DNA of 64,000 nt from Pedobacter sp. MC2016-05 (GTDB lineage: Bacteria > Bacteroidota > Bacteroidia > Sphingobacteriales > Sphingobacteriaceae), in contig NZ_JAPIVT010000016.1 of the NCBI RefSeq assembly GCF_026239735.1, positions 62,001 through 126,000 on the forward strand, read 5' to 3'. Both the position numbers and the translations under genes were made by a program. This document shows, one piece after another, positions 29,839 through 64,000 of the stretch; position 1 is the first letter of the stretch, and each line of letters starts with the position of its first letter. The notes under the pieces were generated by a model. It ran no database searches, had not been told where the DNA came from, and saw nothing but the letters and a program-made list of their open reading frames with translations.

Positions 29839-32241
29839 ATGAAAAAAAAACCGGAAAAAGCAATTATCACCCTGTTATTCATTCTTTTAATGGGATTAAA
29901 TCTTTCTGCTCAGAGAAAAGATTATCCTATACAACCTGTAGCGTTTACAAAAGTTCACGTACATGATCATTTTTGGCAACCAAAAATGGAGGTAAATGCT
30001 AATGTTACCATTCCTTATGTAATTGCGCAATGCAGGGCAAATGGCCGTATGGATAATTTTTTAAGGGCAGGAAAAAAGTTAAGCGGGGATAGAATGAGTG
30101 AATTTCCGTTTGATGATACTGATGTTTACAAAGCAATTGAAGGTGCGTCATATGCGATACAGAATAAACCTAACCCTAAACTAGAAGCCTATATTGATAC
30201 CCTAATTACCATTATCGGTGAAGCACAAGAACCAGATGGATATTTATTCACCTTCAGAACTGTAAATGCCAAGAAACCGCATGAATGGATCGGTGCTAAA
30301 CGTTGGGAGAAGGAAGAAATTTTAAGCCACGAACTTTATAATGCCGGGCATTTATATGAAGCTGCAGTGGCCCATTATCAGGCAACCGGAAAAAAGAATT
30401 TCTTAAATATTGCCATAAAAAATGCTGATTTATTGGTTAAAACCTTTGGCAAAGGCAAAATTGCAGCTTATTCAGGTCACCAAATTGTGGAGATTGGTTT
30501 ATCAAAGATGTATCGGATCACCAATAATCAAAAATATCTGGAACTGGCTAAATTCTTTCTTGATATAAGGGGGCCAAAAGGCGATCCATATAATCAGGCA
30601 CATAAGAAGGTTATTGAGCAACACGAAGCTGTTGGCCATGCCGTAAGAGCTGCTTATATGTACACAGGAATGGCTGATATAGCAGCCTTGACCGGCGACA
30701 CTCAATATCTTTCTGCTATTGATGACATTTGGGGAGATGTAGTTAACAAAAAACTCTACATTACAGGTGGTATTGGTGCTACTGGCGCTGGCGAAGCTTT
30801 CGGCGAAGCATACCAATTGCCAAACATGTCTGCCTATGCAGAAACATGCGCAGCCATTGGCAATGTTTATTGGAACGAACGGATGTTCCTGTTGCACGGT
30901 GATTCAAAATATATTGATGTATTAGAAAAAACGCTTTATAATGGTCTTTTATCAGGCGTTTCCTTAAGTGGCGATCGTTTCTTTTATCCCAATCCGCTGG
31001 CATCTATGTTTCAACATCAGCGTAGTGCATGGATTAGTTGTGCCTGTTGCATTAGCAACATGGCAAGATTTTTACCCTCATTACCTGGTTATGTATATGC
31101 ACAAAACAAGAATGAACTTTATGTAAACCTTTACATGGGAAATACCAGTAAAATTGGACTTGAGTCAACTGATGTGGAAGTTGTTCAAGAAACAGATTAT
31201 CCCTGGAAAGGCAATGTTGACTTAACGATTAACCCGGAAAAAACGGCTGATTTTACCTTAAGGTTAAGATTACCCGGATGGGCGAATCGAGAGGCCGCTC
31301 CTGGTGATCTATATTCATTTTTAGATAAAAAGGATACACCTATAACCATAGCGCTTAACGGTAAATCAATTACTTTCATCGCTGAGAAAGGTTATGCCAT
31401 CATCAGCAGAAAATGGAAAAAAGGAGACCGCATTTCTTTGGTTCTTCCTATGGAGACTAATAAAGTGGTTGCCAACCGAAATGTTAAAGATGATGCCTCG
31501 CGATTTGTGTTGCAACGTGGCCCGATTGTTTACTGTCTTGAAGGGCCTGATAACAGGGATAGTGTGGTGCAAAATATTATGATCGATAAAAATGCAGTAG
31601 CTACTACAGCATACCAGGCAAACCTTTTAAACGGTGTTGATGTGATTAGTATTCCGGGGCAAAGCACTAAAAGACAGCTCAACAGTGATCGTTTGCTGAT
31701 TTCAAATCAAAATGTGAATGCCATACCCTATTATGCCTGGGCAAACCGAGGCCCAAGTGAGATGACCGTTTGGATTCCTTATGAACAATCGGCCGCAAAA
31801 CCAAAACCTGCACCAACTGTGGCAAGCATGAGTAAAGTGTCATCATCAGTTAAAAACAGCAGAATGTTCGCTGCAATTAAGGATCAGTATGAGCCGGCAG
31901 ATTCAAAAGATACCAATTATCCTTACCTGCATTGGTGGCCTGCAAAAAATACCAAAGAGTTTATCCAATACGATTTTGCTTCAACACAAAATGTCAGCGA
32001 ATCAAAAATATATTGGTATGATGATAGTCCGTGGGGCGGATGCAGAATTCCAGCATCTTATAAACTGTTTTACAAAAATGGAGATCAATGGATTCCAGTA
32101 GAAATGATTTCCCCTCTAGAAATTAGTAAAGATAAATTTAATATCGCAAAATTTAAACCTGTGAATACAACTGCTTTGAGGATGGAGATACAACTGCCGG
32201 CAGAGCATGCAGCTGGTGTCCACGAGTGGGCAGTTAAATAG
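29839..32241 (+). CDS. GH127 family glycoside hydrolase (beta-L-arabinofuranosidase type)
   Basis: The 800-residue exported enzyme has a signal peptide ending LNLSAQ. Its all-alpha barrel (about 30-430) carries the full zinc-cysteine site known from Bifidobacterium HypBA1: acid/base E319 (GAGEAF), zinc ligands E335 and C337 (AETC), nucleophile C403 and partner C404 (CACC). HypBA1 cleaves beta-1,2-linked L-arabinofuranose from the short arabinans attached to hydroxyproline in plant extensins; other GH127 members attack pectin RG-II sugars. A beta-sandwich follows, and the last 110 residues form an added jelly-roll-like module. The SusC/SusD pair follows after a terminator. Exact linkage is not proven by sequence, but a hydroxyproline operon in the same window favours arabinosylated hydroxyproline as substrate. 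Confidence 0.92.
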   Translation: MKKKPEKAIITLLFILLMGLNLSAQRKDYPIQPVAFTKVHVHDHFWQPKMEVNANVTIPYVIAQCRANGRMDNFLRAGKKLSGDRMSEFPFDDTDVYKAIEGASYAIQNKPNPKLEAYIDTLITIIGEAQEPDGYLFTFRTVNAKKPHEWIGAKRWEKEEILSHELYNAGHLYEAAVAHYQATGKKNFLNIAIKNADLLVKTFGKGKIAAYSGHQIVEIGLSKMYRITNNQKYLELAKFFLDIRGPKGDPYNQAHKKVIEQHEAVGHAVRAAYMYTGMADIAALTGDTQYLSAIDDIWGDVVNKKLYITGGIGATGAGEAFGEAYQLPNMSAYAETCAAIGNVYWNERMFLLHGDSKYIDVLEKTLYNGLLSGVSLSGDRFFYPNPLASMFQHQRSAWISCACCISNMARFLPSLPGYVYAQNKNELYVNLYMGNTSKIGLESTDVEVVQETDYPWKGNVDLTINPEKTADFTLRLRLPGWANREAAPGDLYSFLDKKDTPITIALNGKSITFIAEKGYAIISRKWKKGDRISLVLPMETNKVVANRNVKDDASRFVLQRGPIVYCLEGPDNRDSVVQNIMIDKNAVATTAYQANLLNGVDVISIPGQSTKRQLNSDRLLISNQNVNAIPYYAWANRGPSEMTVWIPYEQSAAKPKPAPTVASMSKVSSSVKNSRMFAAIKDQYEPADSKDTNYPYLHWWPAKNTKEFIQYDFASTQNVSESKIYWYDDSPWGGCRIPASYKLFYKNGDQWIPVEMISPLEISKDKFNIAKFKPVNTTALRMEIQLPAEHAAGVHEWAVK

Positions 32242-32262
32242 TGTTGTTTAAATCTCATTTCT

Positions 32263-32298
32263 AACTCCCTGTTTCTTATATAAGGCAGGGAGTTTTTT
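32263..32298 (+). terminator. Terminator after GH127
   Basis: AACTCCCTG (32263-32271) pairs with CAGGGAGTT (32286-32294) and runs into six T. GH127 can thus be transcribed separately from the SusC/SusD genes. The following stretch to 32535 shows no other structure. Confidence 0.8.
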
Positions 32299-32535
32299 GG
32301 TTCTTGTAGTATTGGTTAATACTTATCTGATAATATTAATCCTTCACCCGCTAAAGGGCTTCTAAAGATAACTACCGAAACCCCACTACTTATCTTTCCT
32401 TATAAGTAATTCATACAAAAGACATTAGAAAGGTTAAAAAACGATTTGAATCAGGTAAAATATTCGAAATTTCCACTGCTTTACAACGGTAAATTTATAA
32501 ACGTTAAACTAACATTTAAACTAACCGATAAGCTA

Positions 32536-35500
32536 ATGAAATTAAAATTTACTTTGAGCCGAAGTAGGTTATTGGGTATCATCATTTTTCTGCTGATACC
32601 TTTTCTCACCTTCGCGCAAACCAAAATTACCGGTACGGTAACTGATGGCAACAAGCAAGCCATACCAGGCGCTTCCATCAAACAAAAGGGCACAACCAAC
32701 GGAACATCCTCTAATAACAAGGGCAATTTCTCCCTTACTTTGAGAGAGGGATCGCCCCTTCTGGTTATTTCCATTGTGGGTTATAAACCCAGAGAAGTTT
32801 CTACTACAGGTAAAACGAGTATTAACATTGAACTTGCGGAAGATGATAACTCCCTACAGGAGGTGGTAGCCATTGGTTACCAGAATATTCAGCGGAAAAA
32901 CACAGCGGGAGCCATTTCTTCAGTAAAAGGTAAAGATTTTGAAAACACTCCTTATTCTACGTTCGATGCCATGCTTCAGGGGAGAGTAGCGGGATTAACA
33001 GTATTAAGTACCTCAGGCGAACCTGGCGGAAATAATATTGTAAATATCAGGGGGGCCAGTAATGTAAACCTGGGACAAACCAGCTCTCCGCTATATGTTA
33101 TTGATGGCGTAATTTATGATGTAAACGATATTAGTTCAGCTTATGGCAGCAGTCCGCTTCAGGCCATCAACCCCAATGATATCGAATCGGTTGATGTACT
33201 TAAAGATGCTTCAGCTTCTGCTGTTTATGGCGCAAGGGCTGCAAATGGAGTTATTATCGTTAAAACCAAACGTGCTGTTGTAGGGGCACCCCCCCAAATC
33301 AGGCTTTCCAGTTATTTTGGTATTGCGAATAAGCCTGCATTAAAACCGATCCAAACGGGTGCCGCAGAAAGACAACTTAAAATGGATTTGCTATATGGCG
33401 GCAACGGCAGTTACGACAGGTTAAAAAACCTGAACATGATGCTTACCGATAGTTTAAACAGCGCATTTAACAACAACACCGATTGGCAAGGTCTGTTTCT
33501 TCAGACCGGAAACATCAGTAACATTGATGCAAGTGTGGCTGGAGCAACCGATAAATATCAATATAGATTCTCATTTAACCGCTACTATGAAGAAGGCGTA
33601 ATGAAAGGTTATGATATTACCAGAATCACTCCGAGTTTATTCTTTCAGGTATCGCCTACTAAAAATTTATTGGTACAAACCAATTTGTTTGTGGGGCTTA
33701 CTAAAGCTAAACACGGCCAGGGTGATGGAACGAAATATCCTTTTACTACCTGGGGATTCCCTTCTTCATTCTGGAGCATTGGAGAAGTAGAACAGGCATT
33801 ATATTCAGGCCGGTACGATGAACTTCGGGATGATGATCGAACGACAAGTTTAAATGGAAATACAATGGCACAATACACCATTTTACCTGGCCTCAATTTA
33901 AAAAGTACAATTTCCTACAATGTGATTAACAATACCAGAAGCTATTTTACACCAAGTTTGTTGAGCGGAAGCGGCCAGAACGAGGCTTCTGGAGCGATAG
34001 AGCAAACCAACAGGTGGGAATTGGAAAACACGCTTAATTATTCCAAATCGTTAAAAAGCGGTCATAATTTCAACGCAATCCTGCTTCAGGGTATGGAGCG
34101 CAATGTGGCCAACAGTACATTTAGCAGAAGTATAGGAAACCCTGATGCGGTAAAAACAGTAACAGGTATTGCTGCTGGCCCTAATTTATCTGTAAGCAAT
34201 GTGGTACAGCAACGCTCTCGCCTATCGTGGATGGGAAGTTTTGTTTATGACTACAAAGGTCGCTACCTGTTTCAGGCGGTTTATCGTGCCGATGCTTCCT
34301 CACGGTATAGCGAAAATAACAGATGGGGTTCTTTTCCATCGGTATCAGCCGGATGGAATGCCTCTGAAGAAAGTTTTTTCAGCCCTGCAAAAGACATTGT
34401 TTCCTACTTAAAGTTGAGGGCTAGTTACGGTATTACAGGTAACGATCCCGGTGCTTATTATGCCCAGTATCAATCGTTAATTTCAAATGCCAACTACGGC
34501 ACCTCGGTGCTTGGCAATGGCGTCTTCGGCGCTCAAACTACCTATAATGGTACTCAGGTTTTATATCCCGATTATTACGGAGCAGCTTCTGCCACTTCCA
34601 TTAGCTGGGAAAGAAGTCCCCAGTTTAATGCAGGTATTGATCTTGGATTTTTTAAAGATCGGATTAGTTTAACTGCTGATTACTACATCAGAGATTCTAA
34701 AAGTAAGGTTTTCGATGTTGGAGTTCCCTTAACTACTGGCTATTCTTTAATTTCCAATAACTACGTAGATCTGAGAAACACAGGGATAGAATTTACTTTA
34801 ACAACCAGAAATTTAGGACCCAGATCTAAACTACAATGGACCACTAATTTTAATATTGCTTACAATGATAATTACATTATAAAGCTACCAAATGGAGGCA
34901 GAGATTTTACTTTCGGTCCGCCTTGGTTACAACAAACCTTAAGCGTAGGAGAACCACTTTTTACCTATAAAGTTTGGGATGTGAATGGTATTTATTCCCG
35001 AGATTCGGATGTTCCTGTAGATCCAAAAACCGGAAGAAGAGTTACGCAATTTGGTGGCGCACAATTTAGTGCCGGAGATCCTGCAAGAGTTGATCAGAAT
35101 GGAGATTATAATATCGATTATCTGGATTATGTTTCTTACGGAAACCCAAATCCCGATATCACCGGAGGGATGAACAACTCATTCTCCTATAAGGGATTCT
35201 CTTTAGATGTGCTGGTTACCTTTATTTCAGGCAGAAGCCTGCGTAACGGTTACCTGTCGGATAAATTTCAGGATGCAGGCACTTCAGACCCCTACTTTCT
35301 TTGGGGCCCACGTTCAGGTCCAGCTTCTAACTTTAATGTAAGCGATTTCTGGAACAAACCAGGCGATGTAGCCAAATATCCAGGTTTGATTACCAACAAT
35401 GTCGATAAATGGCACATTGGCCAGAGCATGTTTATTGAGGATGCTAGTTTTCTTCGCATCAAAAATATCAGGTTAGGTTACGCTTTACCTCAAAAACTGA

Positions 35501-35673
35501 CTAAAAAGCTTGGACTGAATATGGTGAGGTTTTATGGGGTGATGGATAACGTTAAAGTTTGGTCTAAATCTACTGTCCCAGATCCGGAAGCGGTAGGTGC
35601 CGATGGATATTCCGGAGGAAATGATTATCCAATTCCTAAAAAGTACACATTTGGTATCGATTTAACTTTCTAA
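32536..35673 (+). CDS. SusC/RagA-type TonB-linked outer-membrane transporter
   Basis: From the ATG at 32536 the protein has 1045 residues, with a signal peptide ending LTFAQ. The order is: a carboxypeptidase-regulatory-like domain (TGTVTDGNKQAIPGASI), the plug domain opening with LQEVVAIGYQ and containing ADASASAVYGARAANGVIIV-like SusC signature residues, and a 22-strand barrel ending in aromatic LTF. There is no N-terminal STN domain, so it is not wired to an ECF sigma/anti-sigma pair. It takes up oligomers bound by SusD through the outer membrane using TonB energy. The SusD gene follows after 10 bases. An in-frame start 90 bases upstream was rejected because it would precede the signal peptide. 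Confidence 0.93.
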   Translation: MKLKFTLSRSRLLGIIIFLLIPFLTFAQTKITGTVTDGNKQAIPGASIKQKGTTNGTSSNNKGNFSLTLREGSPLLVISIVGYKPREVSTTGKTSINIELAEDDNSLQEVVAIGYQNIQRKNTAGAISSVKGKDFENTPYSTFDAMLQGRVAGLTVLSTSGEPGGNNIVNIRGASNVNLGQTSSPLYVIDGVIYDVNDISSAYGSSPLQAINPNDIESVDVLKDASASAVYGARAANGVIIVKTKRAVVGAPPQIRLSSYFGIANKPALKPIQTGAAERQLKMDLLYGGNGSYDRLKNLNMMLTDSLNSAFNNNTDWQGLFLQTGNISNIDASVAGATDKYQYRFSFNRYYEEGVMKGYDITRITPSLFFQVSPTKNLLVQTNLFVGLTKAKHGQGDGTKYPFTTWGFPSSFWSIGEVEQALYSGRYDELRDDDRTTSLNGNTMAQYTILPGLNLKSTISYNVINNTRSYFTPSLLSGSGQNEASGAIEQTNRWELENTLNYSKSLKSGHNFNAILLQGMERNVANSTFSRSIGNPDAVKTVTGIAAGPNLSVSNVVQQRSRLSWMGSFVYDYKGRYLFQAVYRADASSRYSENNRWGSFPSVSAGWNASEESFFSPAKDIVSYLKLRASYGITGNDPGAYYAQYQSLISNANYGTSVLGNGVFGAQTTYNGTQVLYPDYYGAASATSISWERSPQFNAGIDLGFFKDRISLTADYYIRDSKSKVFDVGVPLTTGYSLISNNYVDLRNTGIEFTLTTRNLGPRSKLQWTTNFNIAYNDNYIIKLPNGGRDFTFGPPWLQQTLSVGEPLFTYKVWDVNGIYSRDSDVPVDPKTGRRVTQFGGAQFSAGDPARVDQNGDYNIDYLDYVSYGNPNPDITGGMNNSFSYKGFSLDVLVTFISGRSLRNGYLSDKFQDAGTSDPYFLWGPRSGPASNFNVSDFWNKPGDVAKYPGLITNNVDKWHIGQSMFIEDASFLRIKNIRLGYALPQKLTKKLGLNMVRFYGVMDNVKVWSKSTVPDPEAVGADGYSGGNDYPIPKKYTFGIDLTF

Positions 35674-35683
35674 TTCTACAACA

Positions 35684-37153
35684 ATGAAAAAATTAACTAT
35701 ATATATATGCTGTGTAATCGGATTGACCACGGCAAGCTCCTGCCAAAAGTTTTTGGATGAAAAGCCCATCAGTGTATCCACCGATCTTACCTTTTGGAAA
35801 AATGAGGCAGATGCCGATAAAGGGGTGGCAGCAGGTTATGCCTTATTAAGAAAAACATTAAATAAAGCAGATGGAAATGCTTTCTATGCGTACGGCGATT
35901 TTCCAACTGATGAATTTTCGGCAATAGGCTCGTACCGATTTGATAACATAATGAGAATGGAATTGGGCATTTCCGTTCCGGCAGCCGATGTAAATGATAG
36001 AATGCAGGTAATGAGACGGTATGATACTTTCTACAGTGCAATTGACCAGGCCAACCGTTGTATCAAATTCATCCCTACTATTCCTGATAATAAATTTGCA
36101 TCAACGAATATTAAAAATAACCTGCTGGGCGAAGCTTATTTTTTAAGGGCTTTCAATTATTTTTACATGACCAGAATCTGGGGTGATATCCCTGTAATAA
36201 CCGAAACAGGGGCCATTGCAGATGCGGTAGATCTTCCACGAACAAAAGCAGCTGATGTACAAGCGCAATGTTTAGCTGATGTTAATCAGGCTATCTCGCT
36301 CTTAAGCTGGGATTATGCCAACTCCTCAAACCGTGCTGTCAGGGCAAATAAAGGATCAGCTTATGCGCTACTTGCCCACCTGTATGCCTGGCAGGGAGAT
36401 TATCAAAATGCCAACCTTACTACAGATAAAATTATCAGTCAAAATTTTTATCAATATGTTAACAGGGATAATTATTTAAATATCTACAAAGGCAAATCAA
36501 CTGAAGGCATTTTTGAAATTGCTCAAAGTGATGAAAATGAAGGCTATATAGATGGAATTACATTACTTACTTTGAAAAGCCCTTACATTACAAGTGTAAC
36601 AGGCACTTCTATCGCTCAGCTTAATGCCACTACTTTGGCAAGCCTTTACAATACTCCAAATGATAAGCGTTACTCGAACGCATTTGCACTTACCAATACC
36701 ACCAACCCCTTATGCATCAAGTACTCGAACATTACGTTCGTTACGGGACAAAACGTTGTCAGATCGGTAGCGCACAATAACATCATCATTTTCCGATTGG
36801 CAGACATTAAATTGCTAAAAGCAGAATCGCTCGCAGCTCTCAATCAGTTTTCGCAGGCTAGAACTGTACTTAACGAGGTTCGTAGCCAGGCCGGTATAGG
36901 CGACTGGGTAGGAACTGATGCCAACTTATTTGAAGGAATTATTGATGAACGTGGAAGAGAACTCTTTTTAGAAGGACAGCGGTTTTATGATTTGGTAAGA
37001 TTGGGAAGAAAGACCGGCATCATGAAGTTTGGTGCAGAAAAAATGACCAAAAGCGATTTCGATGCCGGTAAATATTATTGGCCTCTTGATCCTGCATTGA
37101 TGAATATTAACAAGAAACTCACCCAGACACCATTTTGGAGTTCAAAGATATAA
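35684..37153 (+). CDS. SusD/RagB-type nutrient-binding lipoprotein
   Basis: The 489-residue outer-membrane lipoprotein has a lipobox at TASSC (Cys20). It has the SusD N-terminal lead KFLDEKP, TPR-like helices (GEAYFLRAFNYFYMTRIWGDIPV) and the conserved C-terminal RGRELFLEGQRFYDLVRLG. It sits as a lid on the SusC barrel and captures glycan or glycopeptide ligands. The next gene begins 5 bases after its stop. Confidence 0.93.
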   Translation: MKKLTIYICCVIGLTTASSCQKFLDEKPISVSTDLTFWKNEADADKGVAAGYALLRKTLNKADGNAFYAYGDFPTDEFSAIGSYRFDNIMRMELGISVPAADVNDRMQVMRRYDTFYSAIDQANRCIKFIPTIPDNKFASTNIKNNLLGEAYFLRAFNYFYMTRIWGDIPVITETGAIADAVDLPRTKAADVQAQCLADVNQAISLLSWDYANSSNRAVRANKGSAYALLAHLYAWQGDYQNANLTTDKIISQNFYQYVNRDNYLNIYKGKSTEGIFEIAQSDENEGYIDGITLLTLKSPYITSVTGTSIAQLNATTLASLYNTPNDKRYSNAFALTNTTNPLCIKYSNITFVTGQNVVRSVAHNNIIIFRLADIKLLKAESLAALNQFSQARTVLNEVRSQAGIGDWVGTDANLFEGIIDERGRELFLEGQRFYDLVRLGRKTGIMKFGAEKMTKSDFDAGKYYWPLDPALMNINKKLTQTPFWSSKI

Positions 37154-37158
37154 GCACC

Positions 37159-37827
37159 ATGAAAAATAAAATTTTGTGTTTTATAATATGCAGCCTGGGG
37201 CTGGCATATTTTGCAAGCTGTAAAAAGAGTGATTACCTGACTGATGGAGGTTTGAGCCAGGCTAAGTCGCCTTTAACTACTTATGAATACCTCAAACAGC
37301 ATAAATATCATTTGTTTGATACCTTGATTATGGTGATTGATCATTATAACATGAAGGATGAGGTAAATGGAGCTGCAACTTTTTTCGCACCCACCAACCA
37401 CTCCATTAATAACTATTTAAAAATAAAAAGAGATTCCGTAAGGCGAATCAACGAAAACAATACCTATACGCTTAGCGATATGTATCAACAGATCAATGCA
37501 GATTCGTTGCGTATTTACTTATCAAAATCGCGTATTGAGTTAACCTCAACCCCGCTTACACCTACTATTTTAGCCAATAATGCGAATACCAAAACTGCTG
37601 TTCAACGTATTTTGCAGCCAAAACCTGTCGAATCCTGGTCGTCGGCACCGATTTACTATCTGTTTTTTATTAAGGTAAGAGGTGATCTGGATCCGCCGAA
37701 TTCAACTATTCAGCCTAATGATCCGAATACAGATTTAAAAGCACAGTGTCAAACTACAGGCATTGAGCCTTCATCGGGAGGAATGCTCCATGTGCTTAGT
37801 AATACCCATACGTTCATCAGATTCTAG
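37159..37827 (+). CDS. Fasciclin-like surface lipoprotein
   Basis: From ATG 37159 the product has 222 residues with lipobox FASC (Cys21). The segment SPLTTYEYLKQHKYHLFDTLIMVIDHYN and AATFFAPTNHSINNYL resembles the first half of a fasciclin (FAS1) domain, found beside many Pedobacter SusC/SusD pairs. A role as accessory surface binding protein of the uptake complex is likely from context; the ligand is unknown. Similarity to FAS1 is by eye only. Confidence 0.65.
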   Translation: MKNKILCFIICSLGLAYFASCKKSDYLTDGGLSQAKSPLTTYEYLKQHKYHLFDTLIMVIDHYNMKDEVNGAATFFAPTNHSINNYLKIKRDSVRRINENNTYTLSDMYQQINADSLRIYLSKSRIELTSTPLTPTILANNANTKTAVQRILQPKPVESWSSAPIYYLFFIKVRGDLDPPNSTIQPNDPNTDLKAQCQTTGIEPSSGGMLHVLSNTHTFIRF

Positions 37828-37851
37828 TTTGGAATCGCAACAGCAAAAATC

Positions 37852-38805: not shown

Positions 38806-38822
38806 TAACTCACTCAACGGTT

Positions 38823-38857
38823 AAACCCAGGTCGGATAATAACGATTCTGGGTTTTA
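38823..38857 (+). terminator. Terminator after the SusC/SusD unit
   Basis: AAACCCAG (38823-38830) pairs with CTGGGTTT (38848-38855), ending in a short T-run. It separates the four-gene uptake unit from the metalloprotease-like gene. Confidence 0.6.
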
Positions 38858-38903
38858 TATTCACGCTAAACGCAATCTATAAGCTTCACATTAACAATCT
38901 CTT

Positions 38904-42154: not shown

Positions 42155-42157
42155 AAA

Positions 42158-55938: not shown

Positions 55939-57183
55939 TTAACTGCGTTCAGCGACAAAAGCCTTGATGTCCATTTCAGGTTTTTCCTCAGCAATAATCT
56001 GGCTCACCAATAAACCTGTTGCCGGACCTAAGCTCAAACCCATCATCCCGTGGCCAGTTGCGATAATCAAATTCTTCCTTTTAACACTGCGACTAATATA
56101 AGGTAAGCCATCGGGCGATGAAGGCCGGAAGCCATACCAGATATCCTTTTCATCAGGAACCGCAGGGTTTAAATCAGGAAAATATTTGGGAATAGATTCG
56201 ACAATCCCCTTTACTCGCTGCATATTTATTCTGGTATTAATTTTATCGAGTTCCATCGTTCCGCCATAACGGATGCTTCCGTTCATCGGCGTAATTGCTA
56301 CTCTGGCCTCGCACAATAAGGCAGGAATGGTCAGGCGGTTTTGAGGTTCCTTTTCCATAAATGAATAACCCTTGCCGGGCATTAAGGACACTTTTAAATC
56401 GGCCATTCTAGCTACTGCAGGCGACCACGAACCTGTGGCAAGCACGAATTGATCTGCTTCCCAAAAGGTTTCTCCTGAAAATACTTTTGTGATCTGATCT
56501 CCATTGCATTCGATCTTGTCTACTTCCTTGCCACGAATAATATCTACACCATTTTTATTAAGATAATCCAGCAACGCGTTCATCAATTTGGCGGGATATA
56601 AATGTGCATCGCAACGGTAATGCACAGCACCCAAAACGTCTAAATTTAGATCGGGTTGTAATATTTTACATTCCTGTGCCGATAAAACGCCCATATCCAA
56701 ACCCAGTGTTTTTGCCTTTTCGGCCAAATGGGCTTCCTCCTCGCCTGCTTTCTCTGTTTTGTAAAAAGCAAGAATTCCTTTATTGGTTAGCTCGAAACTA
56801 AAATCAGACGCTTTAGCTAAATCTTCATATAACTTTTTGCTGAGTAAAGATAAATCACGCAGCGGTTCTGCAGATTTAGCAAGATGCTTTTCATTGGCAT
56901 GTTTCATAAAGGTTAAACCCCAGCCAATAAGGCTTGCATTTAATGAGGGACGAACATAAAAAGGGCTTTTACTGTTAAACATCCACCGTATTCCCTGGCT
57001 AATCATGCCCGGAGCAGCCAGGGGAACAAAATGACTTGGCACAATCATCCCGGCATTGCCGAAAGAACAATTATCTGTAATATCACCCTTATCAATAACC
57101 GTTACCTGAAAACCTTTTTTTTGAAGATAATATGCTGAGCTTAGTCCAACGATTCCTCCACCTATTATTAATACTTTCGACAT
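55939..57183 (-). CDS. FAD-dependent D-amino acid oxidoreductase (D-hydroxyproline dehydrogenase candidate)
   Basis: The 414-residue flavoprotein belongs to the DAO/DadA family. It has the N-terminal Rossmann motif GGGIVGLSSAYYL (8-20), NAGMIVPSHFVPLAAPGM typical of DadA, and C-terminal WYGFRPSSPDGLPYI ... GHGMMGLSLGPATG closing the FAD site. In the hydroxyproline pathway it oxidises cis-4-hydroxy-D-proline to 1-pyrroline-4-hydroxy-2-carboxylate, giving electrons to the respiratory chain. It is the last gene of the four-gene operon, 31 bases after the epimerase. General D-amino acid dehydrogenase activity is the alternative; the operon makes the hydroxyproline role much more likely. Confidence 0.88.
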   Translation of the reverse strand: MSKVLIIGGGIVGLSSAYYLQKKGFQVTVIDKGDITDNCSFGNAGMIVPSHFVPLAAPGMISQGIRWMFNSKSPFYVRPSLNASLIGWGLTFMKHANEKHLAKSAEPLRDLSLLSKKLYEDLAKASDFSFELTNKGILAFYKTEKAGEEEAHLAEKAKTLGLDMGVLSAQECKILQPDLNLDVLGAVHYRCDAHLYPAKLMNALLDYLNKNGVDIIRGKEVDKIECNGDQITKVFSGETFWEADQFVLATGSWSPAVARMADLKVSLMPGKGYSFMEKEPQNRLTIPALLCEARVAITPMNGSIRYGGTMELDKINTRINMQRVKGIVESIPKYFPDLNPAVPDEKDIWYGFRPSSPDGLPYISRSVKRKNLIIATGHGMMGLSLGPATGLLVSQIIAEEKPEMDIKAFVAERS

Positions 57184-57214
57184 TATTTTTCGTTTTAAAC
57201 TAAAAAGCCCCTGA

Positions 57215-58216
57215 TTAAATTACTTGAAATCCATGTGCATACGGATCATCTTCAGCATCTATTTTTATGGTGTTGTAACCAAAAACTTTTGCCCATCCTT
57301 CTACACTTGGTATAATAGCTTTAAAGCCAGCTAAGTCAACTTCTTCTTCTACTCTTCCCGTAAATTTGCTGCCGATGAAACTTTCATGGATAAAATCTTC
57401 ACCTAATTTAAGTTTTCCTTTGGCATACCATTGTGCCATACGGGCCGATGTACCTGTGCCGCAAGGTGATCTGTCGATTGCTTTATCTCCGTAGAAAACA
57501 GCATTTCTGGCTGTCGATGTAGGATCTAACGTTTTACCTGTCCACAATATATGGCTGCATCCATTGATGGTTTCATCTTGCGGATGTATAAATGTATATT
57601 GCTCATTGATTCGTTTGCGAATGATCTGGCTCCAGGTAATTAACTGCGAAGCCGTATAATTTTCGAGCCCTGGGAAATTTGTTTGTGGATCAATGATCGC
57701 ATAAAAGTTACCGCCGTAGGCAACATCGAATGTTAAAACACCAAGATCGGGGCATTCAATTTTGAGATTTTCTGCCGCCAGATAAGAAGCTACATTTTTG
57801 AGCTTAACTGATTTTACCTTTTTTCCTTCTTGCAGGTAAGCAATTTGCACCAATCCTGCAGGTGCTTCCATACGGATGATGCCTGGAATTTTCGGCTGAA
57901 TCAATCCTTCTTCAATGGCGATAGTGATGGTTCCGATTGTACCATGGCCGCACATGGGTAAACAACCACTGGTTTCGATAAACAGTACGGCAACATCGTT
58001 TTCAGGATCGTGAGGCGGATAAAGAATGCTGCCAGACATCATGTCGTGTCCACGTGGTTCAAACATTAAACCCGTTCTTATCCAATCAAATTCCTTTAAA
58101 AAGTGTTGTCGTTTTTCGCTCATGTTGGCGCCCGCTAATTGCGGGCCGCCCCCAGCTACTAATCTCACCGGATTTCCGCATGTATGTGCATCTACACAAA
58201 AAAAAGTTTTACTCAT
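57215..58216 (-). CDS. 4-hydroxyproline 2-epimerase
   Basis: The 333-residue enzyme of the proline racemase superfamily converts trans-4-hydroxy-L-proline to cis-4-hydroxy-D-proline, the first catabolic step. Both catalytic cysteines are present: C89 in LPMCGHGTIG and C252 in DRSPCGTGTSARM. Two cysteines indicate an epimerase, whereas the 3-hydroxyproline dehydratase branch has Thr at the second site. The enzyme is cytoplasmic and needs no cofactor. It overlaps the aldehyde dehydrogenase gene by 4 bases (ATGA). Proline racemase is unlikely given the companion pathway genes. Confidence 0.93.
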   Translation of the reverse strand: MSKTFFCVDAHTCGNPVRLVAGGGPQLAGANMSEKRQHFLKEFDWIRTGLMFEPRGHDMMSGSILYPPHDPENDVAVLFIETSGCLPMCGHGTIGTITIAIEEGLIQPKIPGIIRMEAPAGLVQIAYLQEGKKVKSVKLKNVASYLAAENLKIECPDLGVLTFDVAYGGNFYAIIDPQTNFPGLENYTASQLITWSQIIRKRINEQYTFIHPQDETINGCSHILWTGKTLDPTSTARNAVFYGDKAIDRSPCGTGTSARMAQWYAKGKLKLGEDFIHESFIGSKFTGRVEEEVDLAGFKAIIPSVEGWAKVFGYNTIKIDAEDDPYAHGFQVI

Positions 58217-59796
58217 ATGTCTTTTGTAAGTAGCTGGTTTACCATTCTAAAAATTCCAAAAGGATTGTCATCTTTTAACTCATCCGGTAAAAGTTCCTGC
58301 TCCCAATCCTGGTAGGCAAGCGGACGGACAAAGCGATAAATTGCAGATGAACCAACCGAAGTAAACCGACTATCGTTTGTGGCAGGGAAAGGCCCTCCAT
58401 GTTGCATGGCGGCACAAACCTCTACACCTGTAGGCACACCATTTAAAATGATTCGCCCAGTTTTATCTGTAAGTTGATGAACAAGCGACTGGTATTGTTG
58501 AAGCTCATTTGAATCGGCCATAATGGTAACGGTTAATTGACCTTCCAGTACAGCGATTACTTTTTTAAGCTCGGCTATATCTTTTGATACCACTAAGAGC
58601 GAATAGGGTCCAAAAATTTCTTCATGAAGTTTTGGATTTTGAATAAACTTAGCCGCATCTACATACGCGATTCTGGCCTCAGATTGATTTTGTAGCGATT
58701 CGTTTTTTACCGCTGATGCCGCGATCAGTTCAACACCATCTTCCGCGGTGATTTCTGTAGAAAGCTTTGCATAATTCTTTGCTATTCCTTCAGTAAGCAT
58801 TGTTGCTGATGGAACTTTCGAAATTTCATCAGTCAATACCTGCTTAAATGTTTCCAGTTCTGCTGAAGATATGGCCAACATTAAACCTGGATTGGTGCAA
58901 AACTGTCCGGCCCCTAAAGTGATAGATGCAGCATACTTCTTGGCCAGTTCCTCGGCTTTGTTTTTTATGGCATTGGGCAGCAAAACAATTGGGTTAATGC
59001 TTCCCATTTCGACAAAAACCGGAATCGGCTGTTTACGTTCTTGTGCCAGTTTAACCAAGGCCATACCACCATGATAAGAACCGGTAAAGGTTACTGCTTT
59101 GGTTTGAGGATGCAACACCAGTGCTGATCCGATTGAATAACCATCATCAAATAATAAAGAAAATACACCTTTTGGCATGCCCGTTTTTTCTACCGCTTTA
59201 ACGATAGCTTCTCCTACCAGGGCACTGGTACCATAATGTGCCGGGTGTGCCTTTACTATTACCGGACAACCAGAAGCTAAAGCCGAAGCGGTATCGCCAC
59301 CGGCTACGGAAAACGCCAATGGAAAATTACTTGCCCCGAAAACTACCACGGGACCGATGGGCACAAGCATTTTACGAATATCGGGCCGGGGCAGCGGTTG
59401 CCTTTCCGGCATGGCGGTATCAATAACTGCATCAACCCACGAGCCTTCAGCAACAAGATTTGCAAATAACCGCAGTTGTCCTGTTGTTCTGCCCAGCTCT
59501 CCCTGTAATCTGGCCAATGGCAAGCCGCTCTCCGCAGATGCCCGTGAAACCAAAACTTCACCTATATTCGTAATTTCATCAGCAATTGCGTTTAAAAAAG
59601 CTGCCTTTTTATCTTTATGAAGTACACGATAATTTTTAAACGCAATTGTCGCAGCCATCAAAGCATCGTTAACCGCTGTTTCGCTTGCTTTAACAAAATC
59701 GCCATCCAGCAACAAACCCGTTGCCGGATTTATTGCTCTCAGATTAGCTTCATTACCCGCTACAAACTCACTGGCAACTATATTTCTTCCGTTCAT
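58213..59796 (-). CDS. Alpha-ketoglutaric semialdehyde (2,5-dioxovalerate) dehydrogenase
   Basis: The 527-residue aldehyde dehydrogenase has its catalytic cysteine C300 in GAGQFCTNPG and general base E263 in FVEMGSINP. Length, the NFPLAFSVAGGDTASALASGCPV segment and GVPTGVEVCAAMQHGGPFPAT are typical of the NADP-type alpha-ketoglutaric semialdehyde dehydrogenases. It oxidises the semialdehyde from hydroxyproline to alpha-ketoglutarate, which enters the TCA cycle. The enzyme also ends L-arabinose and glucarate pathways, so it could serve arabinose oxidation too. It lies 9 bases after the deaminase gene. Confidence 0.92.
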   Translation of the reverse strand: MNGRNIVASEFVAGNEANLRAINPATGLLLDGDFVKASETAVNDALMAATIAFKNYRVLHKDKKAAFLNAIADEITNIGEVLVSRASAESGLPLARLQGELGRTTGQLRLFANLVAEGSWVDAVIDTAMPERQPLPRPDIRKMLVPIGPVVVFGASNFPLAFSVAGGDTASALASGCPVIVKAHPAHYGTSALVGEAIVKAVEKTGMPKGVFSLLFDDGYSIGSALVLHPQTKAVTFTGSYHGGMALVKLAQERKQPIPVFVEMGSINPIVLLPNAIKNKAEELAKKYAASITLGAGQFCTNPGLMLAISSAELETFKQVLTDEISKVPSATMLTEGIAKNYAKLSTEITAEDGVELIAASAVKNESLQNQSEARIAYVDAAKFIQNPKLHEEIFGPYSLLVVSKDIAELKKVIAVLEGQLTVTIMADSNELQQYQSLVHQLTDKTGRIILNGVPTGVEVCAAMQHGGPFPATNDSRFTSVGSSAIYRFVRPLAYQDWEQELLPDELKDDNPFGIFRMVNQLLTKDI

Positions 59797-59805
59797 AAGT
59801 AATAT

Positions 59806-60723
59806 TTATTTGCCCCAGCTTCCAGCCGGAAGCTCCGGACGAACAGCTAGTGCATCATTTATAATCTTCAACACTTTAATTCTTTCTTCTCCTTCAATTG
59901 GTAAACGCGGCGCTCTTACTGCTTCAGTACCTAACCCGGTCGCCACTTCAGCCAGCTTGATATACTGAACAAGTTTTGGATGAATGTCCAGTTCCAATAC
60001 TGGTAAAAACCAGCGGTAAATAGTTAGAGCTTCACTAATTCTATTCTCTTTGATGAGATTAAAAATCGCTACAGTTTCTTTAGGAAAGGCATCAACTAAC
60101 CCTGCTACCCATCCATGTGCCCCCATTACAATACTTTCCATTGCCAGAGGATCAACTCCGGTAAAGATTTTAAAACGGTCACCAAATCGGTTAATCAATC
60201 TAGTTACGTTGGAAACATCCCTTGTAGATTCTTTAATGGCCTGAATATTTGGATATTTCGTCAACTCCTCGAACATATCCAGCGTCACTTCAATTTTATA
60301 ATCAACAGGATTGTTATAAATCATAATGGGCAAATCTGTTGATTCTGCAATTGCGCCAAAAAACACCAAAGTTTCAGCTGAAGAAGCATAATAGCGCATA
60401 GGCGGTAATAACATCAAACCCTGTGCTCCAAGAGATTCGGCCTTTTTAGCAACTTCGATTGCTTTTTTGGTGGTTGCCTCAGCAATATTTAATAAAACCG
60501 GAACCCTACCATTAACCAATGCTAATGTATGAGATAACAAGCCAAACTTTTCATCATCAGTAAGTACGCTGGCTTCTCCAAGTGATCCGCCAAGAATAAT
60601 TCCATTAGCTCCAGCTTCTAATTGCGCTTCGATATTTAAATCAAATGCTGCAAAATCCAATTCGTCATTTGCTGTAAATTTTGTAGTTACAGCCGGGAAA
60701 ACCCCAGTCCAGTTTATTGCCAT
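59806..60723 (-). CDS. DapA-family 1-pyrroline-4-hydroxy-2-carboxylate deaminase
   Basis: The 305-residue TIM-barrel protein of the dihydrodipicolinate synthase family has the Schiff-base lysine K164 (QAIKEST) and the tyrosine Y136 (MIYNNPV). In hydroxyproline operons this family member deaminates 1-pyrroline-4-hydroxy-2-carboxylate to alpha-ketoglutaric semialdehyde. The related L-2-keto-3-deoxyarabonate dehydratase also belongs here; the adjacent epimerase and D-amino acid oxidoreductase decide for the deaminase. It is first in the operon, 194 bases after the M1 peptidase gene, with its own candidate -7 element. Confidence 0.9.
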   Translation of the reverse strand: MAINWTGVFPAVTTKFTANDELDFAAFDLNIEAQLEAGANGIILGGSLGEASVLTDDEKFGLLSHTLALVNGRVPVLLNIAEATTKKAIEVAKKAESLGAQGLMLLPPMRYYASSAETLVFFGAIAESTDLPIMIYNNPVDYKIEVTLDMFEELTKYPNIQAIKESTRDVSNVTRLINRFGDRFKIFTGVDPLAMESIVMGAHGWVAGLVDAFPKETVAIFNLIKENRISEALTIYRWFLPVLELDIHPKLVQYIKLAEVATGLGTEAVRAPRLPIEGEERIKVLKIINDALAVRPELPAGSWGK

Positions 60724-60917: not shown

Positions 60918-62591
60918 TTATTTAGGTTGCTTAACCTGGATATAATACATTGATTCTATTGCTGATTTATCGAATAATGCTGCCTGGCCAGCGGCAATTT
61001 TCATCTGATTCCATTTACTTAAAGGGAAAATTTTTAAAGTTGGAACCCCTGCTTTTTTTAATATCAGTGGTAGGTTAAAGCCTTCAACACAATTGCTATA
61101 TCGATAATTCACTACACCATCTTTTATAAAATATTCCAACACGGGAATTTGAGTAGTTTTTAAATACTGATCAAAAACTTTTGTAAAAGAGTAACCAGCT
61201 TTTTTCGAGAAATAAGTTTCGATCTGGGCGCTCGTTACTGTTTTATGGTAAAATGTTTTGTTTAGCCCTCTGAGGATTGATCTGAAAAGCCCGTCGTTGT
61301 CCAGACTGTGCCGAATTGAATGCAGCATGTTTCCTGCTTTTGGATACATATCGCCACTGCCCTGAGCATTTACACCATAAGCGGGAATAATCGGACGATC
61401 ATTTTTAATTCCTTTTCTAATGCCAAAATTATATTCATTTCCAGCCTTTTCTCCAAAATTGTAATCTATAAAAAGTGTTTCGCTATAATTTGTAAAGCCT
61501 TCGTGCACCCACATATCTGCCAAATCGTTTGTGGTAATGTTGTTGCCAAACCATTCATGGCCACTTTCGTGGATAATGATGAAATCATATTTCAATCCCC
61601 AACCATTGCCCGACATGTCTCTGCCTAAATAACCAAATTTGTATTTATTTCCATAAGATACAGCCGACTGGTGCTCCATCCCGGTATGTGAGGCATCGAT
61701 GAGTTGATAACCATCTTCATAAAATGGATAAGGCCCAAACCAGTACTCAAAGCTTTTCAGCATTTTGTGAACCTGATCTGGCATATAATTTTTAGCCTTT
61801 TTAAGGTTATAATCCAACACCCAATAGTTTAAGTTGAGTTTGCCTTTTTCTCCGGGGTAACTTTCTGTAAATTTTACATATTTACCAATGTATGGAATGA
61901 TGCAATAGTTGCTGATCGGATTAACCACGTTGTATTTATAGGTTACAGTGCCATCATTGTTATTTTTCTTAAAAACCAACTTTCCGTTGCCTACCCCAAC
62001 AAGGGTATCGGGAACGGTCATCGTTAAGGATGCCCCCAGATCGGGTTCATCACTTTGATGGTCTTTATTTGGATACCATACAGATGCGCCCAAACCCTGG
62101 CAGGCAACGGTCATCCATGGTCGCGATAATGAATCCACTTTAAAAATAAACCCACCATCCCAAGGGGCACGTTTAGCCTGATGCACCTGCCCATGATAAA
62201 AAATTTTTACCCGATTATTCATCCCTATTTTTTGGGGTGGAACCTGGGCATACCAAACACTTCCAACATGATCAAACTTCAGCTTTGATTGATTATTGTA
62301 CTGAATGCTATCGATAACCAATGGTTCCTGGAGATCGATTTGCATGTTAATCTTTCCGTCATTCTGCTGCACTACCTTGTACACAATTTCATTAGCACCC
62401 GAAATACTTTTGTGAGTATAATCGGGGTTAAAAGCAAGTTCGTAACGCTGAACATCCCACCACGTGCGCTCGGGTGTTAAACTTCCGCGAAGTGTATCGG
62501 CTCGCGTGTAGCGGTTAGTATCCTGCGCAAACAACATGGTATTTGAAAGCATGAGCAATAACAAAATCGGGACACAAATAAAATTTTTCAT
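60918..62591 (-). CDS. M1 family metallopeptidase (gluzincin aminopeptidase)
   Basis: The 557-residue exported enzyme has a signal ending NTMLFAQ, the M1 N-terminal saddle domain and the thermolysin-like catalytic domain. The zinc site HESGHEWFGNN with the third ligand in WVHEGFTNYSE is complete, and HTGMEHQS stands in place of the GAMEN exopeptidase motif. It cleaves N-terminal amino acids from peptides in the periplasm. It lacks the long C-terminal ERAP-like domain of PepN. It lies 26 bases after the SusD gene, so peptide uptake and cleavage are linked. Confidence 0.92.
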   Translation of the reverse strand: MKNFICVPILLLLMLSNTMLFAQDTNRYTRADTLRGSLTPERTWWDVQRYELAFNPDYTHKSISGANEIVYKVVQQNDGKINMQIDLQEPLVIDSIQYNNQSKLKFDHVGSVWYAQVPPQKIGMNNRVKIFYHGQVHQAKRAPWDGGFIFKVDSLSRPWMTVACQGLGASVWYPNKDHQSDEPDLGASLTMTVPDTLVGVGNGKLVFKKNNNDGTVTYKYNVVNPISNYCIIPYIGKYVKFTESYPGEKGKLNLNYWVLDYNLKKAKNYMPDQVHKMLKSFEYWFGPYPFYEDGYQLIDASHTGMEHQSAVSYGNKYKFGYLGRDMSGNGWGLKYDFIIIHESGHEWFGNNITTNDLADMWVHEGFTNYSETLFIDYNFGEKAGNEYNFGIRKGIKNDRPIIPAYGVNAQGSGDMYPKAGNMLHSIRHSLDNDGLFRSILRGLNKTFYHKTVTSAQIETYFSKKAGYSFTKVFDQYLKTTQIPVLEYFIKDGVVNYRYSNCVEGFNLPLILKKAGVPTLKIFPLSKWNQMKIAAGQAALFDKSAIESMYYIQVKQPK

Positions 62592-62617
62592 CTTGCTTGA
62601 CAGGATTTAAGTCGTGA

Positions 62618-64000
62618 TTAATTAACATCCCACCATAAACGATCGGTTGTTTTTGCTTTTTGCTGTGGTTGCGGATTAGCCGTTATTTCAGAATTTGGAT
62701 ATAACACCCTTCTTGGGATTTCGGATAAGGCATTTCTAACTTTTGTTAATGCCGGAAAACCGGTTCTACGCCAATCGGTAAAATTCTCTGCGTTTAAAAA
62801 GTTTGCTATAAATTTCTCCTCGATAATGAATCGCAATGCATTTGTCGCGGTTAGTGTTCCTCTTGCCGATAAATAAGCATTAATATCTGTTGTAGCTACG
62901 CCAACTTTTTCCATGTGTTTCCGAATTCCATCCTGATAAATGGGCTGAGCTGCCGTTGCGCCAGAAATAATGTTAGTGGCTTCAGCTTTTAAAAATAGTG
63001 CTTCAGTATAATTTACCAAATAATTATTGGCATTTGCCCCGGCATAAAAAGATGCTGGAATAGAGTAAGACTCTAAACTTCCAATATCATCGAGGCCAAT
63101 TTGTCTACCGGTGAACAAACCAGTTTGAACAGCAGGAGCAATCATTTTAGTTAACCGAGGATCGTTTCGGGTTTTAAATCCATCAACAAAAGTATTGGCT
63201 AGCACAAGCGTACTGGCAGGTAAAAAGTTTTGTTGCCATGGATTTTCAGCTCCTGCCGCACCACTGAAGGCAACTTTACAGTCATCAGCATTGCTTTGCA
63301 TTCCGTTATTCAAGGCGGTAAGGGCAAGTTGTGCCTGTGCTGCAGCGGTAAAACCTGGTGCTTTAATTAAATGCATATAGTAACGGGCTTTAAGGGTATA
63401 GGCTAATTTTTTCCATTTTGCCATATCACCCGCATACATAAAATCATCACCACCCGGACTTAAACCCGCATTTTTGTTGGCATCTTCAATCCCCTGATCT
63501 AATAACTGTTGTATCTGAACATAAATTTGCTGCTGTGTATCATAAGCAGGCTTAGTATTTTCCGATCCTTTGAAAGCCTGGCTGTATGGAATATCGCCCC
63601 AGGCATCGGTAGCATAACCTAAACAATAAGCGGTTAGAATTTTTGCAATTGCGGCATATTTAAAATTGCCATTGGCTGTTGCTTTCGTATTCAATAAGCT
63701 TAAATTGTTCAACGTTCTTACATAAACATTGTTCCAATCTCCGTCCATGTCAATATTATACATTAAATAGGTACCTTGGTTCGGCGCCACCTGGTTTAAG
63801 GCAATTACCTGAACATACTGCTGTAAAACAATGCTTAAACTTGCATCACCAGAGGCATTAATGTTTTGAGATATCAGCATTTGAACCGGTGGTAAAATCA
63901 ACGATTCCTTTACATCAATCGGCCTGTTGGGATCGGTATTCACATCTAAATATTTTTTACACGAAGTAAGTGATACCAGGTATAAAACCGCGATAACAAA
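62618..64000 (-). CDS. SusD/RagB-family lipoprotein, partial at the window edge
   Basis: The open frame reaches position 64000 without an ATG, so the start lies outside the window. The visible N-terminus VLYLVSLTSC-KKYLD is the end of a lipoprotein signal with the lipobox LTSC. The body matches the SusD-like class of nutrient-binding lipoproteins: LNTKATANGNFKYAAIAKILTAYCLGYATDAWGDIPYSQA and late NYLVNYTEALFLKAEA. About 460 residues are seen, nearly the whole gene. Its SusC partner is expected just outside the window. With an M1 peptidase behind it, it may belong to a RagAB-like peptide importer. Confidence 0.9.
   Translation of the reverse strand, partial: FVIAVLYLVSLTSCKKYLDVNTDPNRPIDVKESLILPPVQMLISQNINASGDASLSIVLQQYVQVIALNQVAPNQGTYLMYNIDMDGDWNNVYVRTLNNLSLLNTKATANGNFKYAAIAKILTAYCLGYATDAWGDIPYSQAFKGSENTKPAYDTQQQIYVQIQQLLDQGIEDANKNAGLSPGGDDFMYAGDMAKWKKLAYTLKARYYMHLIKAPGFTAAAQAQLALTALNNGMQSNADDCKVAFSGAAGAENPWQQNFLPASTLVLANTFVDGFKTRNDPRLTKMIAPAVQTGLFTGRQIGLDDIGSLESYSIPASFYAGANANNYLVNYTEALFLKAEATNIISGATAAQPIYQDGIRKHMEKVGVATTDINAYLSARGTLTATNALRFIIEEKFIANFLNAENFTDWRRTGFPALTKVRNALSEIPRRVLYPNSEITANPQPQQKAKTTDRLWWDVN

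Follow-up and report, generated by a model that had tools for sequence, protein, structure and literature searches.

A stretch of 64,000 nucleotides from Pedobacter sp. MC2016-05, called the window below (contig C8:62001-126000 of the 5.57-Mb, 58-contig genome G000), carries from position 29839 onwards genes for glycosidases, SusC/SusD-type uptake, peptidases and 4-hydroxyproline catabolism. Judged from its genes, this region is probably a utilisation locus for extensin-type hydroxyproline-rich plant cell-wall glycoproteins (HRGPs). Gene families were called with Pfam/NCBIfam profile searches of the window proteins, and the calls of signal peptides are readings by eye of the N-termini only.

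An earlier, sequence-only reading of this DNA had named a four-gene hydroxyproline catabolic operon, and the profile searches confirmed it as four co-directional genes on the minus strand (55939-60723). They encode DAO, a D-hydroxyproline oxidase/dehydrogenase candidate (55939-57183; PF01266 5e-68); the 4-hydroxyproline epimerase HypE (57215-58216); an aldehyde dehydrogenase (ALDH), the candidate alpha-ketoglutarate semialdehyde dehydrogenase (58213-59796; PF00171 1e-40); and a DHDPS-family protein, the candidate 1-pyrroline-4-hydroxy-2-carboxylate deaminase (59806-60723; PF00701 1e-55). HypE scores 595 bits against PRK13971, for which the 4-hydroxyproline epimerase cut-off is 376, and both cysteine motifs, MCGHGT and SPCGTGT, are present. 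The best NCBIfam match of the ALDH is AlphKGSA_gudD, at 105 bits and below the 770-bit cut-off. HypE, DAO, a DHDPS-family enzyme and an ALDH together make up the catabolic pathway for 4-hydroxyproline.

On the plus strand, a co-directional SusC-SusD pair stands with a glycosidase in one string (29839-40325). The string opens with a putative GH127 beta-L-arabinofuranosidase-type enzyme, with a signal peptide by eye (29839-32241; PF07944 2e-110, and a weak C-terminal F5/8C-like match). It continues with the SusC-type TonB-dependent transporter SusC1 (32446-35673; Plug 2.6e-20, CarbopepD_reg_2), the SusD-type lipoprotein SusD1 (35684-37153; SusD_RagB 5e-26, lipoprotein-like N-terminus) and two lipoproteins with no Pfam match that accompany SusCD in relatives, one fasciclin-like by eye only (37135-37827) and one a possible surface binding protein (37852-38805). 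It closes with a DUF6055 protein, a putative gluzincin-type metallopeptidase distantly related to Svx, with a C-terminal beta-sandwich resembling a carbohydrate-binding module (CBM) (38904-40325; PF19527 9e-144). A second SusD-type protein, SusD2 (SusD-like_2, PF12771 6e-72, minus strand), runs from 62618 to 64015, just past the window edge (the listed open reading frame, ORF, is 62618-63943), and its SusC partner lies outside the window (L087). The two SusC/D-type loci of the sequence-only reading are thus both there.

Between these genes lie two Xaa-Pro aminopeptidases on the minus strand, one of the three-domain creatinase type (40382-42154; PF16189, PF00557, PF16188) and one of the AMP_N, or prolidase, type (42158-43555; PF05195, PF00557), and on the plus strand a POT-family oligopeptide transporter (43708-45123; PF00854 2e-89). 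A long minus-strand string then reads, from the right, SusD2, M1, DHDPS, ALDH, HypE, DAO, AraC, DUF885, permease, DPP-IV, GH43. Its remaining members are an M1-type aminopeptidase with the motif HESGH and a signal peptide by eye (60918-62591; PF01433 2.6e-13), an AraC-family regulator (54613-55512; PF12833 2e-18), a DUF885 protein (52746-54584; PF05960 1e-38) whose HELLPGH motif we take to be metallopeptidase-like, an amino-acid permease (51291-52730; PF13520 5e-54), a DPP-IV/S9 dipeptidyl peptidase with a signal peptide by eye (48885-51176; PF00326, PF00930) and a multidomain GH43 with F5/8C and LamG domains (45202-48735; PF04616 1e-44), likely an alpha-L-arabinofuranosidase by family. The claims of a multidomain GH43, a POT transporter, two Xaa-Pro aminopeptidases and an AraC regulator were therefore all recovered by Pfam; for the DPP-IV, DUF885 and M1 peptidases the genes stood up to the same search, and their signal peptides are read by eye only. 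The sequence-only reading lacked the DUF6055 gene and a GH97 gene just outside the window (67296-69281 on the window scale, L087:17296-19281, plus strand), which is nearest to alpha-galactosidases.

Clustering of sugar, peptide and hydroxyproline genes beyond chance

We searched 151 genomes of the window's family, its own included, with PF19527 (DUF6055), PF07944 (GH127) and PF05544 (HypE). HypE was found in 52 of them, a GH127-type gene in at least 75 and DUF6055 over the Pfam cut-off in 21, after 34 of the 61 DUF6055 rows had been dropped as below it. The GH127 counts are lower bounds made up of the matches listed and one GH127 of the own genome; those for GH92 likewise come from the matches listed. 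HypE and a GH127-type gene lie within 10 kb of each other in at least 15 of the 46 genomes that have both, compared with 0.39 expected (the own genome is not among the 15), and within 30 kb in at least 19 of 46, compared with 1.16 expected (here the own genome is counted). DUF6055 lies within 30 kb of HypE in 6 of 21 genomes (0.32 expected; own genome among the 6) and within 10 kb of GH127 in at least 5 of 21 (0.24 expected; own included). The control family GH28 was found within 30 kb of HypE in 0 of 32 genomes (1.44 expected) and was at chance over a wider range (2 of 32 within 60 kb, 2.8 expected). The control GH92, among the matches listed, was within 20 kb of HypE in 0 of 51 genomes and again at chance over a wider range (2 of 51 within 45 kb, 2.7 expected). 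The sequence-only reading had named conservation of the neighbourhood in relatives as one of two points on which it could fail, and the neighbourhood is conserved.

Of the orthologues of the window GH43, 16 of 21 have HypE, DUF6055 or DUF5695 no further than 31 kb away; the same is true of 6 of 11 close GH127 orthologues (64-77 percent identity) and of 8 of 19 in a group of 51-55 percent. What is more, HypE is present in every genome with DUF6055 (21/21) and in every genome with a GH43 orthologue (22/22), own included, compared with 52 of 151 overall. HypE-GH127 links within 10 kb occur in 4 of the 10 HypE-bearing genera, mostly in one (g14). The link between sugar, peptide and hydroxyproline genes thus holds at the level of both gene neighbourhood and co-occurrence, and the joined reading proposed from the sequence is supported by comparative genomics.

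We also surveyed the 52 HypE loci of the family, taking 20 kb of each and leaving out one HypE-like locus (L086, 34 percent identity). DHDPS- and DAO-family genes accompany HypE in 52 of 52 and an ALDH in 48. At least one of seven HRGP-type families (GH127, GH43, GH97, GH27, GH36, DUF6055, DUF5695) is present in 30 of the 52 and a peptidase relative in 35; 21 have both and 8 neither, with "GH127" and "peptidase" taken broadly enough to admit weak relatives at 22-27 percent identity, other S9 enzymes and GH146. Co-directional strings that join both halves of the locus (ARRANGEMENTS) were found in L038, L041, L052, L064, L151 and L165. In L041 the order is SusC1-SusD1-two lipoproteins-DHDPS-ALDH-HypE-DAO, with 31 bp from the last lipoprotein ORF to the DHDPS ORF; L038 reads DUF6055-DHDPS-ALDH-HypE-DAO-DUF5695, L064 DHDPS-ALDH-HypE-DAO-DUF885-permease-DPP-DUF6055-GH43, and L052 GH127-DHDPS-ALDH-HypE-DAO. 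L151 has SusC-SusD-DUF6055-DHDPS-ALDH-HypE-M61 peptidase-DAO, and L165 a GH127/146-type gene followed by DUF6055-DHDPS-ALDH-HypE. In L068, SusC-SusD2-DHDPS-HypE-DAO has two GH127-type genes alongside. In some related loci (L043:1791-2735, L161, L186) HypE, GH43 or DUF6055 has a gene for an ornithine cyclodeaminase/mu-crystallin nearby, whose product could act on a further derivative of proline, for instance 3-hydroxyproline.

Outside the family, a phylum sample of 395 genomes contained DUF6055 in 12, nine of them from other families. Four of these nine have HypE, all of one genus and two matching Flavobacterium, and each of the four carries its HypE, GH127-Pfam and DUF6055 genes on a single contig in a span of less than 30 kb; the other five, including Bacteroides ihuae, are without HypE. 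Among named DUF6055 loci we took the best 80 of 486, with fetched flanks of up to 10 kb. GH127/146-type genes occur in 29 of these 80, GH97/GH36/GH27 in 28, GH43 in 20 and a prolyl-type peptidase relative in 19, and at least three of these four gene classes in 15; three have hydroxyproline genes, two of them with HypE (L151, L165). B. ihuae L200 shows an operon-like order of GH127-SusC-555-aa ORF (SusD by position)-DUF6055-GH97-GH43-GH127-DPP. L198 and L202 resemble it, L221 is without GH97 and L223 without GH43. These five Bacteroides/Parabacteroides loci also have an Xaa-Pro aminopeptidase or DPP gene, and no hydroxyproline genes in their flanks; they are candidate dietary-extensin polysaccharide utilisation loci (PULs).

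The nearest named locus is that of Pedobacter petrophilus (L144), which has the GH127 half and in which the shared genes are 57-87 percent identical at the protein level and keep their order, with three extra ORFs. There a frameshift or a sequencing error has broken the SusC homologue (L144:3457-6726) into two ORFs with 36 bp between them. Upstream of the locus, the window has genes for two molybdenum hydroxylase enzymes of the aldehyde/xanthine dehydrogenase type (18429-26284), with SDR and GDSL-lipase genes between them. At the other end, contig C8 stops right after GH97 (plus strand), and contig C29 (L111) starts with a DUF5695 gene (minus strand) followed by a GH146-like gene. DUF5695 and GH97 are tail-to-tail neighbours in L038 and L106, so C8 and C29 are probably adjacent and the cluster larger than the window.

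The DUF6055 and DUF5695 proteins

The DUF6055 protein (473 aa) that closes the GH127 operon contains the gluzincin motif HEXXHX(8,28)E, and alignments of 21 and 51 relatives show no variation at its residues H187, E188, H191 and E219. Its AlphaFold model has a pLDDT of 89.9 and superimposes on the M30 peptidase lugdulysin with Z 17.0 and an rmsd of 4.5 over 277 aligned residues; M1 aminopeptidases reach Z of about 12. With the same model, Foldseek returned M1 aminopeptidases at the top (E 1.7e-7, with a TM-score of just 0.35) and matched the C-terminal beta-sandwich to carbohydrate-binding modules, while a search of the sequence against the PDB gave two chance-level matches and nothing more. 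This confident model points to a gluzincin-type metallopeptidase fold with a CBM-like tail.

The Svx peptidases of Pectobacterium and Dickeya are, like the putative DUF6055 enzyme, secreted metallopeptidases of the gluzincin HEXXH..E type (PMC13164431, PMC9266454, PMC10815107). According to one report (PMC13164431), Pba Svx cuts carrot extensin, leaves mucin and concanavalin A uncut, and requires its acyltransferase-like domain for extensin cleavage; its sugar-binding residues are W136, G137 and N171. The window DUF6055 differs from Svx in several respects: its C-terminal domain is CBM-like, its motif is spaced HEXXHX27E where Pba Svx has X22, it appears to have no acyltransferase-like domain, and it is placed in a nutrient locus. 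Because of the apparent absence of this domain we do not class it as an Svx, although by analogy it may work like one. Two paralogues in the same genome have other neighbours. The one on C18 (L107) stands with NAGLU and sulfatase genes, that on C23 (L108) with an M60 peptidase gene, and both with GH36, perhaps for another glycoprotein target. Since paralogues sit in such contexts, DUF6055 is likely a broader family of glycoprotein peptidases.

DUF5695 (PF18951), an uncharacterised family of about 900 aa named in the accessible part of a fungal phylogenomics study, is the commonest unassigned neighbour, found at 22 loci (e.g., L038:11860-14616), 15 of which are HypE loci. In 20 of 33 genomes no more than 20 kb separate it from HypE, where 0.27 such genomes would be expected. 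With the distance widened to 45 kb and DUF6055 accepted as a partner as well as HypE, the count is 29 of 33, compared with an expectation of 1.04; the remaining four genomes include the own one, whose copy is on contig C29. A fold model built from four close sequences reached a pLDDT of 44.

Glycosidases and the probable substrate

All three GH127 domains, catalytic, middle and C-terminal (PF07944, PF20736, PF20737), score above cut-off in the window protein. An alignment to 6ex6 and 4qjy shows E319, E335, C337, C403 and C404, whose roles as acid/base and Zn/cysteine residues we presume from B. longum HypBA1; the full zinc-cysteine site proposed from the sequence is therefore in place. A second GH127-like gene of related loci (the L036 copy was tested) is closest to 5opj (530 bits), as is a 1029-aa type with LamG and Ig domains (the own copy in L111 was tested); we take 5opj to be the GH146 enzyme BT0349. 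GH146 enzymes that remove the last arabinose from hydroxyproline are described in the accessible part of PMC10850190. For the window GH43, the best solved relatives are 5msx and 3qz4. We considered this enzyme as an exo-galactanase acting on arabinogalactan-protein (AGP), and found no galactanase-named chain among the 57 PDB matches listed, which is not proof of absence.

GH121 releases arabinobiose from Ara3-Hyp. The statement that each step from glycoprotein to alpha-ketoglutarate has a candidate gene was overstated here, at this one step, since no GH121 was identified, no search having been aimed at it.

GH97 scores 583 bits to the retaining alpha-galactosidase 3a24 and 580 to 5e1q, and 235 bits to its best alpha-glucosidase match, 5hq4. 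It has Asp at a position that is Gly in 5e1q, presumably the nucleophile. Related loci have GH27 (the cluster of L039; also L042, L054 and L056) or GH36 (the cluster of L107; also L127 and L128), families that include alpha-galactosidases. Alpha-galactose sits on serine in extensin, as stated in the accessible part of PMC9266454, and a putative alpha-galactosidase GH97 fits this linkage. Three things together led to the assignment to extensin: the distant relation of DUF6055 to Svx, the alpha-galactosidase match of GH97, and a GH127/146/43 set of the Hyp-arabinoside type; the choice of extensin over AGP and the activity of each enzyme are deduced from these families.

From family membership and neighbourhood, the locus would work by deglycosylating, cutting, importing and trimming its substrate and oxidising the hydroxyproline. 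Outer-membrane and secreted enzymes would act first: GH43 would take off terminal alpha-linked arabinofuranose, and GH127, with the GH146-type enzyme and DUF5695 of the other contig, perhaps next door, would remove beta-arabinofuranose down to hydroxyproline. Galactose on serine would be the target of the GH97 alpha-galactosidase, and the backbone that of the DUF6055 peptidase, which would cut it with the help of a CBM-like domain. Fragments would enter through the two SusCD systems, and DPP-IV, DUF885, M1 and the Xaa-Pro aminopeptidases, with the POT transporter and the amino-acid permease, would break down peptides rich in proline and hydroxyproline into amino acids. 4-Hydroxyproline would then become alpha-ketoglutarate through HypE, DAO, the DHDPS-family deaminase and the ALDH. 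The AraC protein would be the local regulator.

Several observations weigh against this reading. It is drawn from genes and from activities predicted for their products, and the Poisson-binomial and Fisher values behind the clustering assume independent genomes and uniform placement, ignoring phylogeny. DUF6055 is within 30 kb of HypE in only 6 of the 21 family genomes that bear it, and 77 of the best 80 of 486 named DUF6055 loci are without hydroxyproline genes in the fetched flanks. Its match to the Svx/AvrXca profile NF040510 (3e-13, 49 bits, cut-off 625) covers profile positions 60-420 of 601, the acyltransferase-like domain that Pba Svx needs for extensin appears to be missing, and its C18 and C23 paralogues adjoin NAGLU, sulfatase, GH36, GH95 or M60 genes. 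Alpha-galactosidase-type genes are rare within 20 kb of HypE (GH27 at 4 of 52 loci, GH97 at 2 of 52, one being the own locus), which slightly lowered our confidence in extensin and in the wider proposal given below. Seven intergenic regions gave no convincing signal of co-regulation: they have 6 exact 10-mers in common, below the shuffle mean of 9.7, and the word CGGTTAAAATAT had 18 matches compared with 12.3 expected, a number reached by 5 of 100 shuffles.

A further observation against extensin comes from the solved structures. The best relatives of the window enzymes, 6ex6 for GH127 (736 bits) and 5msx and 3qz4 for GH43, are Bacteroides thetaiotaomicron proteins near BT3662-BT3675. Because these relatives point to an arabinogalactan-responsive region, the chief rival is a locus directed at AGP of the gum-arabic type, in which GH127 and GH43 would trim arabinose side chains and the peptide and hydroxyproline genes would serve the AGP backbone. 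Hydroxyproline occurs in AGP as well, and the accessible part of PMC3243724 lists BT3674-87 with arabinogalactan as its primary substrate. However, the 20 proteins encoded at 29839-63943 showed neither a beta-galactanase nor an enzyme for uronate or rhamnose; GH16, GH30, GH78 and GH105 are not among the 25 commonest of 119 Pfam families in 57 of 86 unannotated ORFs of related loci, which leaves their absence unproven; and GH97 with the DUF6055 peptidase suits the Ser-alpha-Gal motifs of extensin better. We consider AGP an unlikely target on this balance.

It is improbable that two independent neighbours are involved, GH127-SusCD as a PUL for plant polysaccharide and, beside it, a locus for peptides and hydroxyproline from collagen or gelatin. 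Genes on both strands do separate the GH127 and hydroxyproline halves, which implies several transcripts and not one operon; 22 of the 52 HypE loci have none of the seven HRGP-type families in the 20 kb taken, 14 of these 22 having peptidase-type genes only; and the close GH127 orthologue has no HypE within 31 kb in 6 of 11 genomes. The separate transcripts and the 22 loci also count against an HRGP locus. All these facts are set against the repeated association of GH127, DUF6055, GH43, DUF5695 or SusCD1 with HypE, in differing orders, across genera and in another family, and against the unrelated GH28 and GH92, which have no such link. A GH127 PUL directed at pectin (rhamnogalacturonan II or arabinan), like other GH127/146/142 loci, has very little probability. 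The sole NCBIfam match of the window GH127 is indeed aceric acid hydrolase (NF049879), but at 484 bits it is well under the 950-bit cut-off, and the fit to 5mqo (325 bits), presumably the aceric acid hydrolase BT1003, is much poorer than that to 6ex6; moreover, the GH127 is linked to peptidases and HypE, and HypE is not near GH28 pectinases.

An extensin-type HRGP locus is therefore the reading we favour. A wider proposal, on which the balance tips slightly to the negative, is that these genes represent a dedicated extensin-degrading system of Bacteroidota. In it, two uncharacterised families would consist of enzymes specific for HRGPs. The DUF6055 of these loci would be the glycopeptidase that cuts the backbone, and DUF5695 would form a new family of glycosidases with Hyp-linked arabinan or Ser-galactose as substrate, which may take the place of GH121. 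Glycan removal, prolyl-peptide breakdown and hydroxyproline oxidation would be coupled in Sphingobacteriaceae-type and Flavobacterium-type species, and in Bacteroides the system would occur without hydroxyproline genes, as a dietary-extensin PUL. If the extensin reading is right, it would give DUF6055 and DUF5695 testable functions and the hydroxyproline catabolism of 52 of 151 family genomes a reason, and it predicts that some Bacteroides feed on extensin.

Comparison with known systems

Extensins, which are heavily cross-linked, are important in plant defence. The release of Hyp-arabinosides is already known from Bifidobacterium and Xanthomonas, and backbone cutting from Svx; the papers listed by term searches of the open-licence PMC literature gave us no description of a single locus in which deglycosylation, proteolysis and the use of hydroxyproline come together, in agreement with the view in the sequence-only reading that such a locus is not a standard system. 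The HypBA1/HypBA2/HypAA system of Bifidobacterium longum is alike in acting with GH127/GH146 and GH43 on extensin-type Hyp-arabinofuranosides, as given in the accessible parts of PMC6085000, PMC10850190 and PMC7263609. It combines GH121 with an ABC transporter for the sugars, whereas the present locus (where no search for GH121 was made) joins SusCD uptake to the DUF6055 peptidase, to prolyl peptidases and to the catabolism of hydroxyproline. XeHypAA/XeHypBA2/XeHypBA1 of Xanthomonas euvesicatoria perform the same three-step removal; the deletion mutants are still pathogenic (PMC6085000), and the word "epimerase" is absent from the main text of that paper.

The 4-hydroxyproline catabolic clusters reported in eLife in 2014 (PMC4113996) have HypE with DAO, DHDPS-family and ALDH genes in common with the present locus, and that paper mentions no glycoside hydrolase, "arabino" or "extensin", and "peptidase" once, on Bacilli. 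For Latescibacteria single-cell genomes, extensin use was predicted in silico from GH127 and generic peptidases and transporters (PMC4454575); the accessible part gives a whole-genome inventory and names no joined locus, Svx-like peptidase or hydroxyproline catabolism. The locus also resembles the PULs of Bacteroidota, such as the arabinogalactan PUL BT3674-87, which likewise place SusCD and glycosidases in one string. In contrast to these, it would reach the protein backbone and the catabolism of the glycosylated amino acid, and would be a Bacteroidota utilisation locus that goes beyond the sugars to the amino acid carrying them.

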